Notes under the pieces: generated by a model
Told to the model about the DNA's origin: nothing
The model's input: the letters and a program-made list of their open reading frames with translations, nothing else
Databases searched by the model: none
DNA from: Candidatus Methylomirabilota bacterium
GTDB lineage: Bacteria; Methylomirabilota; Methylomirabilia; Rokubacteriales; CSP1-6
Length of the DNA stretch: 41,381 nucleotides
NCBI GenBank assembly: GCA_036001065.1
Contig: DASYUQ010000082.1
Location: forward strand, 1 to 41,381
Reading direction: 5' to 3'
Program-made: the position numbers and the translations under genes
Shown here: in pieces, positions 3,429-39,451 of the stretch
How positions within the stretch are numbered: the stretch's first letter is position 1
Layout of the letters: each line of letters starts with the position of its first letter

Positions 3429-3748
3429 CGGCGGAGCGAGCGACCGGGTCGCTGCAACGTCGGCGCGACCGCCAGCCACGCGAGCCCGACGAAGATGAAC
3501 AGCGCGATCTTCAGGAGGTTCTCCCACGTCAGGTAGCCGAACGGATTCGGATCGCGCTTCGCGAGCCATTCCGCCCGCTCGCCGTCCTTGGGCTCGTACC
3601 CCGCCGGGTTGTAGCTGCCGATCGTCTCGACGAAGCGCGCGACGCCGGGCACGGCGATCCACGCGACCGCGATGATCGTCAGGAACACGGCGATGTGGAA
3701 CCGCTGGTGGGGCTTCACGTGATGGTAGTAGTAGCGACGGAGCCTCAT
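3425..3748 (-). CDS. Small membrane protein of unknown function, 107 aa
   Basis: Not recognised. A basic N-terminus (MRLRRYYYHHVKPHQRF) precedes a hydrophobic segment at about residues 18-38 (IAVFLTIIAVAWIAVPGVA), then a charged middle with Trp, Tyr and Pro (SYNPAGYEPKDGERAEW), and a second hydrophobic segment at about 78-96 (LLKIALFIFVGLAWLAVA). Two transmembrane helices with both ends inside is the likely topology. It lies between asd (36 bp) and truA (stop overlaps the truA start), so it is co-transcribed with housekeeping biosynthetic genes. No function is assigned. Confidence 0.7.
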
Positions 3749-10043: not shown

Positions 10044-10625
10044 TTAATCGGCGAACCCGACGACCCGGGGGTCGTCGGAGACGCGGGCGCGCTTGACGGG
10101 CTCGACCTTCTTCGCGCGCGCCTTCGGACCGCGGGCGATGGCCACCTTGCCCGTGCGCACGAGCTCCTGAATGCCCATCGGCTTCAGGAGCTCGATGAGC
10201 GCGTCGAGCTTGCCTTCCTCGCCCGTGACCTCCAGCACGAAGGTCGCGGCCGTGACGTCGACCACCTTGGCGCGGAAGATGTCCGCGGTGCGGAGGATCT
10301 CCGCGCGGTGCTGCGGCTCGGCGTTGACGCGGATCAGCACGAGCTCGCGCTCCACGTGGTTGTCGTCCGTCAGATCCGAGACCTTGATGACGTCGATCAG
10401 CTTGTGGAGCTGCTTCGTGACCTGCTCGATCACGAACTCGTCGCCGTGCACGACGATCGTCATGCGGGACACGGCCGGGTCCAGCGTCTCGCCGACCGAG
10501 AGGCTCTCGATGTTGTAGCCGCGCGCCGAGAAGAGCCCCGCGACGCGCGACAGGACGCCGAACTTGTTCTCGACGAGGATCGCGATCGTGTGCTTGCGCG
10601 GCTCGCTGCCGTTGCCGTTGCTCAT
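10044..10625 (-). CDS. ilvN: Acetolactate synthase small (regulatory) subunit
   Basis: Regulatory partner of IlvB, carrying valine feedback. 193 aa from ATG 10625, which shares its A with the ilvB stop (TGATG). ACT domain at about residues 12-85: [31 protein letters not shown], then [10 protein letters not shown]. The second domain, [20 protein letters not shown] onward, is typical of IlvH/IlvN. The C-terminal tail is basic ([14 protein letters not shown]). Confidence 0.96.
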
Positions 10626-27668: not shown

Positions 27669-29198
27669 TCAGACCAGCGGCACCGCCACGCCCTCCGCTC
27701 GCGGTCGCGACGCCGGGCGCTTCAAGCTGTCTTTGACCACCTCGGCCAGCCGCCGGATCCCCTCGTCGATCCGCGCGGCGGGCACCGACGAAAAGGACAG
27801 CCGGAGCGTGCGCTCGCCGCCGTCCACGAAGAAGGCGGCCCCCGGCGTGAACGCCACCCCGCGCTCGATGGCGCGCGAGAGCAGAGCCGCGGCGTCGAGC
27901 CCGGGCGGCAGAGTCACCAGCAGCGAGAACCCGCCCTGAGGCTCGGTCCAGGTCACGCCCTCCGGCAGGCGCCGCTGGAGCGCTCCCACCAGCAGCGAGC
28001 GCCGCCGGCCGTACTCGCGGGCGACGCGGGCGACGTGACGATCGAGCAGCCGCCGCTCGCAGAACCGGTGGACCGCCGCCTGGAGCAGCGCGCTCGTGTG
28101 CAGATCGGCGAGCTGCTTGGCGGCGGCGAGCCGCTCGATGACGAGCGGCGGCGCCAGCAGCCAGCCCAGGCGCAGCCCCGGGAAGAGGATCTTGGAGAAC
28201 GTCCCGATGTAGATCACGAGCCCGTCGTGGTCCTGCGCCTTGAGCGGGCCCGGCGGCCGGTCGCCGTAGTAGAGACTGGGATCGAAGCCGTCCTCCACGA
28301 TCGGCACCTGATGGCGCGCCGCCGCGGCCAGCAGCCGGCGCCCCGTCTCCGCGCCCATGGCCAGACCCGTGGGGTTGTGGGAGGTCGGCTGGCAGTAGAA
28401 GAGCTTCGGCGCCTGACGCTCGAGCAGCCGTTCGAACACGTCGGCCTGGGGCCCGTCCGCCTTCCAGGGCACGGTGAGGAGCTGGGCCCCGAACGCGCGA
28501 AAGACCTGCACGGCCCGCGGATAGGTCGGCTGCTCGATCGCGACGAAGTCGCCGGGATCGACGAGCGTGCGGGCGATCAGGTCGAAGCCCTGCTGCGAGC
28601 CGTTGACGATCAGGATCTCGTCCGATCGCGCCTCGAGCCCGAAACGCAAGAGATACGTGGACAGGTACCGGCGCAGAGGGGCATAGCCCGCCACCGGCGA
28701 GTACTGGAGCAGCGCCTCGCCCTCCTCCCGCACCACCTCGTTGAGGGCCCGCCGAAAGGCGTCGGTCGGGAAGAGGCCGCTGTCGGGCATGCCGCCGGCG
28801 AAGGAGATCACCGTCCCCGCCAGCCCGTTCGGCGGCACCAGCGCCCGGCGGCGATTGTCCTCGGTCTCGACGATCCGGGCGCTGCGCGAGAAGAGCCCCG
28901 ACCAGTCGATGGGGGGCCGCGCGGCGCTCTCGGGAGCGGCCGGCCGGCCGCGGTCACCGGCGCGCTCGGCGATGAAGGTGCCCTGCCCCACGTGGGACCG
29001 CGCGGCGCCCGAGGCCACCAGCTCCTCGTAGGCGAGCACCACGGTCGCGCGGTTGACGCCCAGGTCCCGGGCCATCTCCCGCGTGGCCGGCAGCTTGACC
29101 CCCGGGAGCAGAAGGCCGTCGCGGACGAGCCGCTCCAGGTGCGCCTGGATCTGGCGGGCCAGCGGGACCGGCTTGCTGCGGTCTAGCGCGATCTGCAT
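27669..29198 (-). CDS. pdxR: MocR/PdxR-type regulator (GntR DNA-binding domain plus aminotransferase-like domain)
   Basis: 509 aa from ATG 29198. Residues 1-75 are a GntR winged helix ([49 protein letters not shown]). From about 120 on it is a fold-type I aminotransferase domain: [47 protein letters not shown] and the PLP lysine in [15 protein letters not shown]. Placed directly before pdxS and pdxT, as PdxR is in Gram-positives, it probably controls PLP synthesis in response to PLP, and may also act on the divergent selenoprotein operon. A true aminotransferase is unlikely because of the DNA-binding domain. Confidence 0.92.
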
Positions 29199-29208
29199 AG
29201 GTCGCCTC

Positions 29209-29275
29209 GACCAACCATTTTCGGCCAAAAATCAACCCGGTCAAGCGCCAATTGGTCTACCTGGCGACCGACCAA
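29209..29275. promoter_or_regulatory. Three GACCAA/TTGGTC boxes in the pdxR-selenoprotein intergenic region
   Basis: GACCAA at 29209-29214, TTGGTC at 29252-29257 and GACCAA at 29270-29275; the last two form an inverted repeat with a 12-nt gap, and CCAATTGG overlaps at 29248-29255. A minus-strand promoter TTGACC (29244-29239), N17, AAAATG (29221-29216) fits pdxR. Repeated boxes suit a MocR-type dimer. Confidence 0.5.
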
Positions 29276-29286
29276 ATCGGGCACCG

Positions 29287-29292
29287 TATAAT
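29287..29292 (+). promoter_or_regulatory. -10 box of the selenoprotein operon
   Basis: Perfect TATAAT, 40 nt before the ATG of the CxxU gene, with a weak -35 position lying beside the GACCAA box at 29270. A poor -35 suggests activator control. Confidence 0.55.
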
Positions 29293-29332
29293 GGTCGCGC
29301 GTTAGAGATCCCCCCAGCCAGGAGGCGATTCG

Positions 29333-29629
29333 ATGGCAGAGATGAAGGAGTTCGCAGGTCTGTACTACCGCGAAGGCGCGCTCGACCCCAAGACGATGCA
29401 GCTGGTGGCGCTGGCGGCGATGGCGGCCGCCGGCTGCACCTCCTGAGTGCCGGGACGCTTCGCGGCTGCGAAGCAAGCCGGCGCCACCGAGGACGAGATC
29501 AGCGAGGCCCTCTACTACGCCATGCGCGGGGCGGCCCGGGCGACCTGGTCGACCATCAAGTACATCCCCGGCGTCGAGGACCTCAACAAGGAGTGGAAGA
29601 CGAAGTTCGAGCGCCATTCGAGCAAGTAG
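29333..29629 (+). CDS. AhpD/CMD-like selenoprotein with CxxU motif
   Basis: 98 residues with UGA at 29444-29446 read as selenocysteine. The N-terminal part, from ATG 29333 (AGGAGG 7 nt ahead), ends GCTS; the frame resumes VPGRFAAAKQAGATEDEISEALYYAMRGAARATWSTIKY. Together this is a short carboxymuconolactone decarboxylase/AhpD-type domain whose redox CxxC is C35-T-S-U38. The helix after it (KQAGATEDEISEAL) is the family hallmark. The likely role is thiol-disulfide or peroxide chemistry. The usual His three residues after the CxxC is not obvious. Reading UGA as a stop would leave two useless fragments. First gene of a three-gene operon. Confidence 0.85.
29444..29446 (+). other. In-frame UGA selenocysteine codon of the AhpD-like gene
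   Basis: TGA in the second cysteine position of the CxxC motif, with family-like sequence on both sides in the same frame and a hairpin directly downstream. Confidence 0.82.
29449..29482 (+). promoter_or_regulatory. SECIS-like hairpin of the AhpD-like gene
   Basis: Perfect 7-bp stem GCTTCGC (29457-29463) / GCGAAGC (29468-29474), loop GGCT, and an outer 5-bp stem GCCGG (29449-29453) / CCGGC (29478-29482) across a small internal loop. The loop begins 18 nt after the UGA, as in bacterial SECIS elements. Confidence 0.78.
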
Positions 29630-29741: not shown

Positions 29742-29921
29742 ATGGCGGGTGAGGCCCCCATCCGGCAGGCCGTGAAGTGGATCGACGAGCATCTCCTCGA
29801 CAACCCCAAGGCGGATCGGGTGAAGCTCATCGACGAGGCATCGCGCCGCTTCGACCTGTCGCCGCTGGACCAGGACTTCCTCATGCGCCACCTCGCCGAG
29901 CGCGCCAGGGACAAGAAGTGA
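29742..29921 (+). CDS. Small hypothetical helical protein, 59 aa
   Basis: Not recognised. MAGEAPIRQAVKWIDEHL begins it, with LLDNPKADRVKLIDEASR and FDLSPLDQDFLMRHL later; charged, helical, no cysteine and no signal. Clear ribosome site AAGGAG. Its TGA overlaps the GTG start of the methyltransferase (GTGA), showing translational coupling. Position makes it a candidate partner of the selenoprotein or methyltransferase. Confidence 0.65.
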   Translation: MAGEAPIRQAVKWIDEHLLDNPKADRVKLIDEASRRFDLSPLDQDFLMRHLAERARDKK

Positions 29922-30694
29922 ACGGTCGGCACGGCCAGCGCGTCCGCGAGCAGTTCGGCCCCAGCGCCGAGGCCTATGTGGCGAGCGTCTCGCACGCGGC
30001 CGGCGCCGACCTCGAGCAGTTGCTGACCTGGGGCCGTGCCCGGCGGCCCGCGCGCGTGCTCGACGTCGCCACCGGCGGCGGCCACACCGCGCTGGCCTTC
30101 GCCGGCCTGGCCACGCGGGTCGTTGCCTTCGATCTCACCGAGCCGATGCTGCGAGCCGCGCGCGAGTTCATCCGGGGCCGGGGCGTGGGTAACCTCGCCT
30201 ACGTGGCCGGCGACGTGGAGGCCCTGCCCTTCCGGCCCGGCGCCTTCGCCGTGGTCACCTGCCGGATCGCCCTCCACCACGTCGCCAACCCCGCCGCCGC
30301 CATCCGCGAGGTCGCGCGCGTGCTGGCCCCCGGCGGCTCGTTCCTCGTCCAGGACATCCTGGGGCACGACGATCTAGAAATCGCCACCTTCATCACCGAG
30401 GTGGAGCGCCGGCGGGATCCCTCGCACGTGCGCGCCTACCGCGCGCGGGAGTGGAAGGCGTTCCTGCGGGGCGCCGGCCTGACGGTGATCGACGAGACGG
30501 TCCTGACGAAGGTCCGCCTCTGGGACGACTGGACGGGGCGCATGCGCATGACGCCAGATGCCCTCCGCGCTCTCGAGGGGTTCGTCCGCGCGGCCCCGGA
30601 GCGTTGCCGCGCCGCGTTCGACTTCAAGCTCACCGACACAAGCGTGGAGTCGTTCACCGACCGCATGCTCCTGCTGCGGGCAGATCGGGACTGA
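29918..30694 (+). CDS. Class I SAM-dependent methyltransferase (UbiE/Methyltransf_11 type)
   Basis: 258 aa from GTG 29918. SAM-binding motif I VLDVATGGGHTALAFA at about residues 45-60, acidic residue in VAFDLTEPMLRAA, AGDVEALPFRPGAFAVVTCRIALHHV and LAPGGSFLVQDI. The last third (WKAFLRGAGLTVIDETVLTKVRLWDDWTGRM) would bind the acceptor, which is unknown. The frame is open further upstream but not protein-like. Cysteines typical of arsenite methyltransferases are absent. Confidence 0.9.
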   Translation: MNGRHGQRVREQFGPSAEAYVASVSHAAGADLEQLLTWGRARRPARVLDVATGGGHTALAFAGLATRVVAFDLTEPMLRAAREFIRGRGVGNLAYVAGDVEALPFRPGAFAVVTCRIALHHVANPAAAIREVARVLAPGGSFLVQDILGHDDLEIATFITEVERRRDPSHVRAYRAREWKAFLRGAGLTVIDETVLTKVRLWDDWTGRMRMTPDALRALEGFVRAAPERCRAAFDFKLTDTSVESFTDRMLLLRADRD

Positions 30695-38371: not shown

Positions 38372-39451
38372 CTACTTCCCGACGTTGAAGCGGATGTGGC
38401 AGATCTCGCCGTCGCCGACGATGTAGTCCTTGCCCTCGAGCCGGAGCTGGCCTCTGGCCCGCACCTCTGCGAACGACCCCTGGGCCGCGACCAGCTCGTC
38501 GTAGCCCGTGACCTCGGCCCGGATGAAGCCGCGGGCCATGTCGGAGTGCACGGTCCCCGCTGCGTCCTGCGCGCGCGTGCCCCGGGGGATCGCCCACGCC
38601 CTCACCTCGTCGTCGCCGACCGTGAAGAACGAGATCAGGCCCAGGAGCGCGTAACAGTCGCTCAGGAGGCGGCGGATGGCCGGCTCCGTGAGGCCCAGGT
38701 CGGCCAGAAAAGCCTGCTGCTCGTCGCCGGCGAGCCGGGCCACCTCGGCCTCGATCACCGCCGACACCCAGCCCACCCGGGTGTGCGGGCGTGAGGTGAG
38801 CCCGCCGAGCCCGAACCGCTCGACGACGCGCTCGCCCTCGCCGACAGCCTTCTCGTCCAGGTTCACGCAGTGCAGGATCGGCTTCTGCGAGAGGAAGGTG
38901 AAGCCCCGCACCACCCGGGCCTCGTCGGCCGACAGCTCGAGCGCGCGGAGCGGCGTCGCGGCCTCCAGGGCCGCCTGGAGCTTTTTCAGAATCTCCTGCT
39001 CCCGGACCTCGGCGTCGGTGCGGCGCTTCTTGATGGAGGACTCCAGCCGGACCAGGCGGCGCTCGACGACCTCGAGGTCGGCGAGGATCAGCTCGGTCTC
39101 GAGATCGTCGATGTCGCGCCGCGGATCGGGCGCGCCGAGCGCGGGGTCCGGGAAGGCCCGCACCACGTGCAGCAGCGCGTCCGCGTTCCGGAACTCCTTG
39201 GTCTCCAGCCCCGCCCGCTCCCCCTTGGCGATCCCGGCCAGGTCCACGACCTCGAAGCTCGCATACGTCGTCTTCCTGGGCTGGAACAGCGCGCTCAGCC
39301 CGTCCACGCGGGGGTCCGGCACCCGCGCGATGCCCGTGTGGAGCTCCCCGCGCCCCGTCTCGTAGCGCGAGGTGGGGACGGTGGAGCCGGTGAGGAGGTT
39401 GAACAGCGTCGTCTTGCCGCTCTTGGGCAGTCCGATCAGGCCGATCTTCAT
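38372..39451 (-). CDS. ychF: Obg-family ATPase YchF
   Basis: 359 aa ribosome-associated P-loop ATPase. Walker A GLPKSGKTTLFNLLTG (residues 7-22), switch region with VDLAGIAKGERAGL, DIDDLETELILADLEVVERRL (coiled-coil domain), CVNLDEK at the base-binding loop, and a C-terminal TGS/ubiquitin-like domain ending GEICHIRFNVGK. The family uses ATP because the NKxD motif is changed. Start at ATG 39451, 7 nt after GATAAT, probably leaderless. Confidence 0.95.
   Translation of the reverse strand: MKIGLIGLPKSGKTTLFNLLTGSTVPTSRYETGRGELHTGIARVPDPRVDGLSALFQPRKTTYASFEVVDLAGIAKGERAGLETKEFRNADALLHVVRAFPDPALGAPDPRRDIDDLETELILADLEVVERRLVRLESSIKKRRTDAEVREQEILKKLQAALEAATPLRALELSADEARVVRGFTFLSQKPILHCVNLDEKAVGEGERVVERFGLGGLTSRPHTRVGWVSAVIEAEVARLAGDEQQAFLADLGLTEPAIRRLLSDCYALLGLISFFTVGDDEVRAWAIPRGTRAQDAAGTVHSDMARGFIRAEVTGYDELVAAQGSFAEVRARGQLRLEGKDYIVGDGEICHIRFNVGK

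Follow-up and report, generated by a model that had tools for sequence, protein, structure and literature searches.

A UGA-containing CMD-fold gene in Candidatus Methylomirabilota that very probably encodes a lineage-specific CxxU selenoprotein

Does the in-frame UGA at positions 29444–29446 of a contig from a Candidatus Methylomirabilota bacterium end a short gene, or is it read as selenocysteine (Sec) within a longer one? The window, meaning the whole 41,381-nucleotide stretch that was analysed, corresponds to the full length of contig C82 in a bin (G000) of 239 contigs and 4.46 Mb. An earlier reading, made from the sequence alone, had divided the region under the standard code into a 37-residue stub and a 60-residue fragment, and the same split was obtained on translation. 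When TGA was translated as U, positions 29333–29629 on the forward strand gave a product of 98 residues with a single UGA, at residue 38, and a TAG stop. Because the standard code yields two fragments, ordinary annotation would be likely to miss the gene. The gene and the sequences around its start are as follows.

29333–29629, + strand: putative CMD-fold selenoprotein gene, 98 residues, ATG to TAG (translation through TGA; PF02627 match; orthologues in relatives)
29435–29446, + strand: C-T-S-U putative redox motif, with the Cys35 codon at 29435–29437 and the UGA (predicted Sec38) at 29444–29446 (coordinates; conservation)
29287–29325, + strand: TATAAT −10-like hexamer (29287–29292) and AGGAGG ribosome-binding site (29320–29325), both found by eye

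The Pfam CMD model (PF02627) matched residues 8–62 with 55.3 bits, above its gathering cutoff of 23, and the CMD domain therefore runs across the UGA. The product had been described as very short, but 98 residues is not unusual, as the solved CMD-fold chain 3bey has 96 residues and the GSU3128 model 84 positions. Were the UGA an ordinary stop, the locus would hold two short genes or a pseudogene, with the agreement of frame arising by chance. The stub and fragment of the standard reading are in keeping with this explanation, and it has to be weighed against the state of the codon in relatives.

A total of 148 genomes, 53 of them outside the class, were searched with the 98-residue protein, and 85 had some match. 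Orthologues were defined by 63–99% identity across the UGA site; 44 of the 148 genomes qualified, and in each of their matches a single TGA was the only stop codon. These genomes contributed one locus apiece, which together with a locus from a Nitrospinota MAG (L117) made up a set of 45 sequences. Left out of the set were L118 and L121 as duplicates, L139 as a diverged copy (which also has the UGA), paralogues, a homologue from outside the class (L140), two copies falling short of the UGA (L138 and L122) and a second copy in G068 (contig C135, one TGA). The UGA and Cys35 were both kept in 45/45 sequences. Homologues with stops at this position, which the sequence-only reading had named as grounds for abandoning it, were not seen, with TAA or TAG at the UGA site in 0/45. 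The alignment with Cys homologues that had also been proposed was borne out in part: Cys occupies the Sec position in distant CMD proteins (the solved chains described below), but there was none at position 38 among the 63–99% matches in the 148 genomes, so that the Cys-pair argument rests on the distant proteins.

Over the 990 pairs of the 45 sequences, mean pN/pS was 0.23 upstream of the UGA and 0.40 downstream of the hairpin that follows it; both parts are under purifying selection as protein. The corresponding mean pS values were 0.51 before the UGA and 0.436 after the hairpin, with 0.11 within the stem-loop. Some support for an ordinary stop comes from the truncated copies L138, in which only the hairpin and downstream part are kept (G094), and L122, in which the first 20 residues alone are kept and are followed by other sequence close to the end of a contig; both appear to be products of rearrangement or misassembly. 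Short N-terminal fragments only were found in G022 and G023. Against an ordinary stop stand the UGA in 45/45 sequences with TAA, TAG or Cys in none, the CMD match that crosses the codon and the purifying selection on both halves, and we regard this explanation as scarcely credible. The best-supported reading is a CMD/AhpD-like CxxU protein in which the UGA very probably encodes Sec.

When named genomes were scanned, 31 loci were recovered, and for 29 of these the source MAG bears the name Candidatus Rokubacteria, Rokuibacteriota or Methylomirabilota. The closest was MNEF01000101.1, 96% identical in the predicted selenoprotein. The remaining two were from one Nitrospinota MAG and one Actinomycetota MAG, the latter only 31% identical. 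The locus in the MAG labelled Nitrospinota (L117, RFHZ01000123.1) holds the same UGA gene, with 85% identity over residues 1–86, and was read as a case of transfer or misbinning.

The second question is whether the RNA next to the UGA has the form expected of a selenocysteine insertion signal. Two features were delineated here.

29447–29484, + strand: SECIS-like hairpin directly 3' of the UGA, with a lower stem, a 3×3 internal loop and a 7-bp upper stem (folding; bSECIS constraints of PMC13188914)
29457–29474, + strand: upper stem-loop, with an apical GGCT loop at 29464–29467, 17 nt from the UGA (folding; frozen codons; paralogue pairing)

A hairpin of 7 bp plus 5 bp with a GGCT loop had been noted directly after the UGA. 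The 7-bp upper stem, the loop and the placement were recovered, while the 5-bp stem proved to sit inside a 7-bp lower stem in the minimum free energy (MFE) structure. The bSECIS model, as set out in the part of PMC13188914 available to us, calls for a loop of 3–9 nt, an upper stem of 4–16 bp, a G in the first two loop positions, a distance of 16–37 nt from the UGA and an MFE of −7.5 or lower. With a 4-nt loop, 7 bp, GG, 17 nt and −26.6 kcal/mol, the hairpin agrees with the model on every point. An Rfam scan of the window returned no family at the gathering threshold. The hairpin was more stable than any of 200 dinucleotide shuffles (z = −4.21), whereas 181 of 2000 synonymous recodings were at least as stable (z = −1.48). 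Its stability alone is ordinary for GC-rich coding sequence and not exceptional.

Codons +4 to +9 read CGC TTC GCG GCN GCG AAG, and in the 45 orthologues they vary solely at the last base of the loop, where the codon is GCT in 26, GCC in 18 and GCA in one, counts that take the 45 related sequences as they stand with statistics that ignore kinship, as do the pairing counts below. Other Ala columns vary, with entropies of 0.80 to 1.38 bits. Synonymous variation is also absent outside the hairpin at Ile +18, Ile +37 and Tyr +23, and Ile and Tyr have few codons. The freezing of the stem-loop codons has no reason at the level of the protein, and would be expected of a site bound by SelB. Pairing within the orthologue set was rejected as evidence for RNA structure; 403 of 434 cells were paired, and 214 of 1000 synonymous-codon permutations did as well. 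Covariation inside the set gave no signal, as there is hardly any variation in the upper stem, and mismatches are frequent at one pair of the lower stem.

A paralogous, CMD-like putative selenoprotein gene with the motif N-T-H-U is present in the same bin (L091, positions 3292–3552 of contig C114), where the next ORF starts at 3540 and overlaps its end. We extracted 24 loci of this NTHU family, to which 41 matches at 43–48% identity from the search of the 148 genomes may belong. The UGA was found in 24/24, and the first position of the CxxU motif was Asn in 23/24 and Thr in 1/24; Table 1 of PMC13188914, so far as that source was available, lists no NxxU motif. Codons +4, +5, +8 and +9 are frozen in all 24 loci. 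The hairpin is in the same register, and 69/69 sequences of both families form six of the seven pairs in the upper stem. Two of these six have been changed on both sides between the families, one from T-A to C-G and the other, at two third-codon positions, from C-G to G-C. The remaining pair, which is the outermost, is present in 43/45 orthologues and 0/24 NTHU paralogues. The case for an RNA signal would thus rest on the frozen codons and on the NTHU paralogue, in which every compensated pair counts as a single event, rather than on stability.

If the UGA is decoded as Sec, the cell should possess the machinery for it, and the sequence-only reading had proposed a search for selA, selB, selC and selD, with absence to be counted against it. 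A selD gene with one in-frame TGA was found in the window's bin (positions 1501–2445 of L157, contig C202), and the SelD protein is probably itself a selenoprotein. The other components were not found in the bin. There was no match for selA. The five model matches for selB were all below the cutoff and were rejected, as they best fit IF-2, TypA, LepA, EF-G and EF-Tu. Eight of nine matches for tRNA-Sec were checked and were ordinary tRNAs (scores were computed for 150 of the 815 initial candidates). Taken formally, this is the outcome that was to count against the reading. It agrees with a true loss of selA, selB and selC from the source organism, which would leave the gene a relic or its UGA read by another tRNA, and the bin was rated 100% complete.

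The genomes of relatives point in another direction. Matches over the cutoff to tRNA-Sec, selA and selB were found in 107, 108 and 110 of the 148 genomes, respectively. In a genome of the same genus (G001), a 4.8-kb stretch at positions 10457–15283 of contig C80 carries tRNA-Sec (UCA anticodon), selA and selB. Contig C80 of the window's bin (7824 bases) matches this contig at 93% from 3000, the start of the query, to 9569; the match stops 0.9 kb before selC of G001, with 138 bases left to the end of the bin's contig. It is picked up again 29.5 kb on, at 39080, which corresponds to base 120 of contig C37 of the bin. Between the two flanks, queries from G001 match the bin only by repeats and at approximately 70% identity. 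The last 160 bases of C80 and the first 160 of C37 had no other match among the loci compared except the resumed flank, which leaves room for an insertion or a rearrangement at this point. Between selA and selB of G001 lies a GC-rich hairpin-like repeat of approximately 75–100 bases (L089, positions 10253–10355), perhaps a REP-like element, of which there are some 40 copies across the window's bin.

Within the source family, selA was without a match in 5/57 genomes, against 5.2 expected from incompleteness alone, and all five have a selD gene with TGA. A gap in assembly or binning is likelier to account for the missing selA, selB and tRNA-Sec than a true loss, because contig ends flank the site of the cluster, rather than a joined deletion, and the same-genus genome has the cluster. 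The reading frame and hairpin are also intact in the window's bin. Overall, we consider true loss to be very unlikely, and a UGA-encoded Sec is retained as the preferred reading.

The surroundings of the gene were compared across loci, and the neighbouring features are listed here.

27669–29228, − strand: pdxR, a divergent MocR-type regulator gene, with pdxS and pdxT behind it (NF052282, 326.1 bits, cutoff 320)
29742–29921, + strand: 59-residue ORF, co-oriented downstream neighbour (no Pfam or NCBIfam match)
29918–30694, + strand: class I methyltransferase gene, overlapping the end of the 59-residue ORF (PF08241, E 2.8e-23)

An opposite-strand pdxR was found within up to about 1.5 kb upstream in 26/45 loci (the set with L139 replacing L117) and in 0/11 same-class loci within the sequence examined, and the link to pdxR and PLP synthesis was not adopted as a functional one. 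The intergenic region between pdxR and the UGA gene contains an inverted repeat seen by eye, TTGGTC-N12-GACCAA at window positions 29252–29275, which is a possible PdxR operator.

It is plausible, judging from gene order, that the UGA gene heads a new operon, and the 59-residue ORF is a possible partner in it. This ORF lies downstream in 18/27 named loci, and a co-oriented homologue is found within 113 bp in 15/44 orthologue genomes and within 4.3 kb in 27/44. Homologues of the 59-residue protein were present in 65/148 genomes, mostly in the source family of the phylum and including genomes that have no UGA gene, with one match per genome in nearly all 65 and two in G094. The methyltransferase gene, which fell below the cutoff in all of the best 25 NCBIfam matches listed, follows the 59-residue ORF in 10/27 named loci (within the sequence examined).

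What the protein might do was approached through its fold. The AlphaFold model (built on a 15-row alignment) had a mean pLDDT of 88 and a pTM of 0.68, and shows two short strands followed by a helical core. In the PDB, the best Foldseek matches were CMD/AhpD-type chains, namely RclX (7y4r), O27018 (3bey) and TM1620 (1vke), with 0 of 91 matches having an E value below 0.001. Sec38 aligns with the second Cys of the CxxC motif in the four solved CMD chains that have a Cys pair in the alignment, and in the alignment to solved chains Gln23 falls on a conserved Glu and Arg42 on a conserved His. Across the orthologues, the place of the Glu is held by Gln in 42/43, the place before the Sec by Ser or Thr in 45/45 and the place of the last His by Arg in 45/45.

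The AhpD proton relay consists of Glu118, Cys130, His132, Cys133 and His137 in the available part of PMC3141380. The protein resembles Mycobacterium tuberculosis AhpD in its match to the AhpD core domain (TIGR00778, 32 bits, cutoff 27.8) and in a weak structural match to 1knc (E 2.0). It differs from it in that, judging by motif position and alignment with the residues described in that source, Glu118, His132 and His137 are replaced by Gln23, Ser37 and Arg42, and Cys133 by the predicted Sec38. The earlier claim of one AhpD-like domain with C-T-S-U across the UGA consequently held for the fold and the core domain, but the Glu and His of the relay have been replaced, and the Glu, CxxC and His set of the AhpD peroxidase is not present. 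Although the CMD fold is present, the predicted protein cannot be filed as an AhpD, and as the relay residues are missing, peroxidase activity is not assured.

Other relatives were compared in the same way. AhpD-like CxxU selenoproteins had been said to be known from marine metagenomes, and CxxU selenoproteins of the AhpD-like, distant AhpD and CMD-like kinds are indeed catalogued in the portions available of PMC1088965, PMC2398784 and Table 1 of PMC13188914. The Sargasso Sea and GOS CMD-like proteins (PF02627) described in these sources share the CMD domain and the CxxU motif with the window protein; in contrast to these, which were compared by description only, the Rokubacterial family has Gln23 and Arg42 at the relay places. 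The best NCBIfam match, over residues 4–68, was to the GSU3128 family (NF041047, "distant AhpD homolog"), likewise a small single-domain CxxU protein, but at 51.6 bits against a curated cutoff of 110 the window protein falls outside that family. L140 (contig C64 of G118), the homologue from outside the class, scored 77.1 bits with the same model, also below the cutoff; unlike the window family, it keeps the Glu, CTHU and His together with the UGA. The L140 match contains one TAG in addition to one TGA. The AhpD-like parts of ArsM/AhpD (NF041537) and MduS (NF045649) match residues 3–65 and 3–71, respectively, but those families are methyltransferase fusions, whereas the window protein is a lone domain whose scores come nowhere near the respective cutoffs (510 and 380 bits). 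A literature search, which was not exhaustive, found no description of a Rokubacterial CMD selenoprotein. The CxxU selenoproteins of the CMD/AhpD-like type are known, and on sequence comparison the window gene would be a new, lineage-specific member with an unusual active site. A Methylomirabilota MAG with 63 selenoprotein genes has been reported (Deng et al. 2026, as given in the available part of a review), and that set may include the window family.

The altered relay raises the alternative that the protein is a selenoprotein with a structural or regulatory role, without peroxide or disulfide chemistry. This would fit the replacement of the Glu and His, particularly as PMC3141380 (in the part available) describes the last His as invariant throughout its AhpD-like proteins and as one of the most essential residues. 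However, Cys35 and Sec38 are both invariant, which a structural role would not need, and we judge such a role unlikely.

The reading that we favour, and hold with good confidence, is that of a 98-residue CMD-fold protein in which the UGA would be decoded as Sec by SelB and tRNA-Sec, guided by the adjacent hairpin. Sec insertion, the redox cycle and a role as a peroxidase or thiol oxidoreductase are all predictions. Most likely, Sec38 would act as the attacking selenolate of the Cys35-x-x-Sec38 pair, passing through a selenenylsulfide cycle like that of the CxxC pair in AhpD. Less surely, because Sec is ionised at neutral pH, Sec38 may be able to do without the Glu/His proton relay, at the positions of which Gln23, Ser37 and Arg42 now stand. 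A bolder and more doubtful idea, which we put forward tentatively, is that selenium replaced the acid–base machinery of an AhpD-type enzyme, the relay having been lost and its places fixed as Gln and Arg, and that the NTHU paralogues do without even the partner Cys, with Sec acting alone or with an outside thiol.

The gene, which recurs across a lineage of uncultured soil and groundwater bacteria, would add a conserved selenoprotein family to the phylum Methylomirabilota. Taken together, the full relay with CTHU, the lost relay with CTSU and the lost partner Cys with NTHU form a natural series, in which one could test which features of a thiol enzyme are no longer needed once Sec is present.
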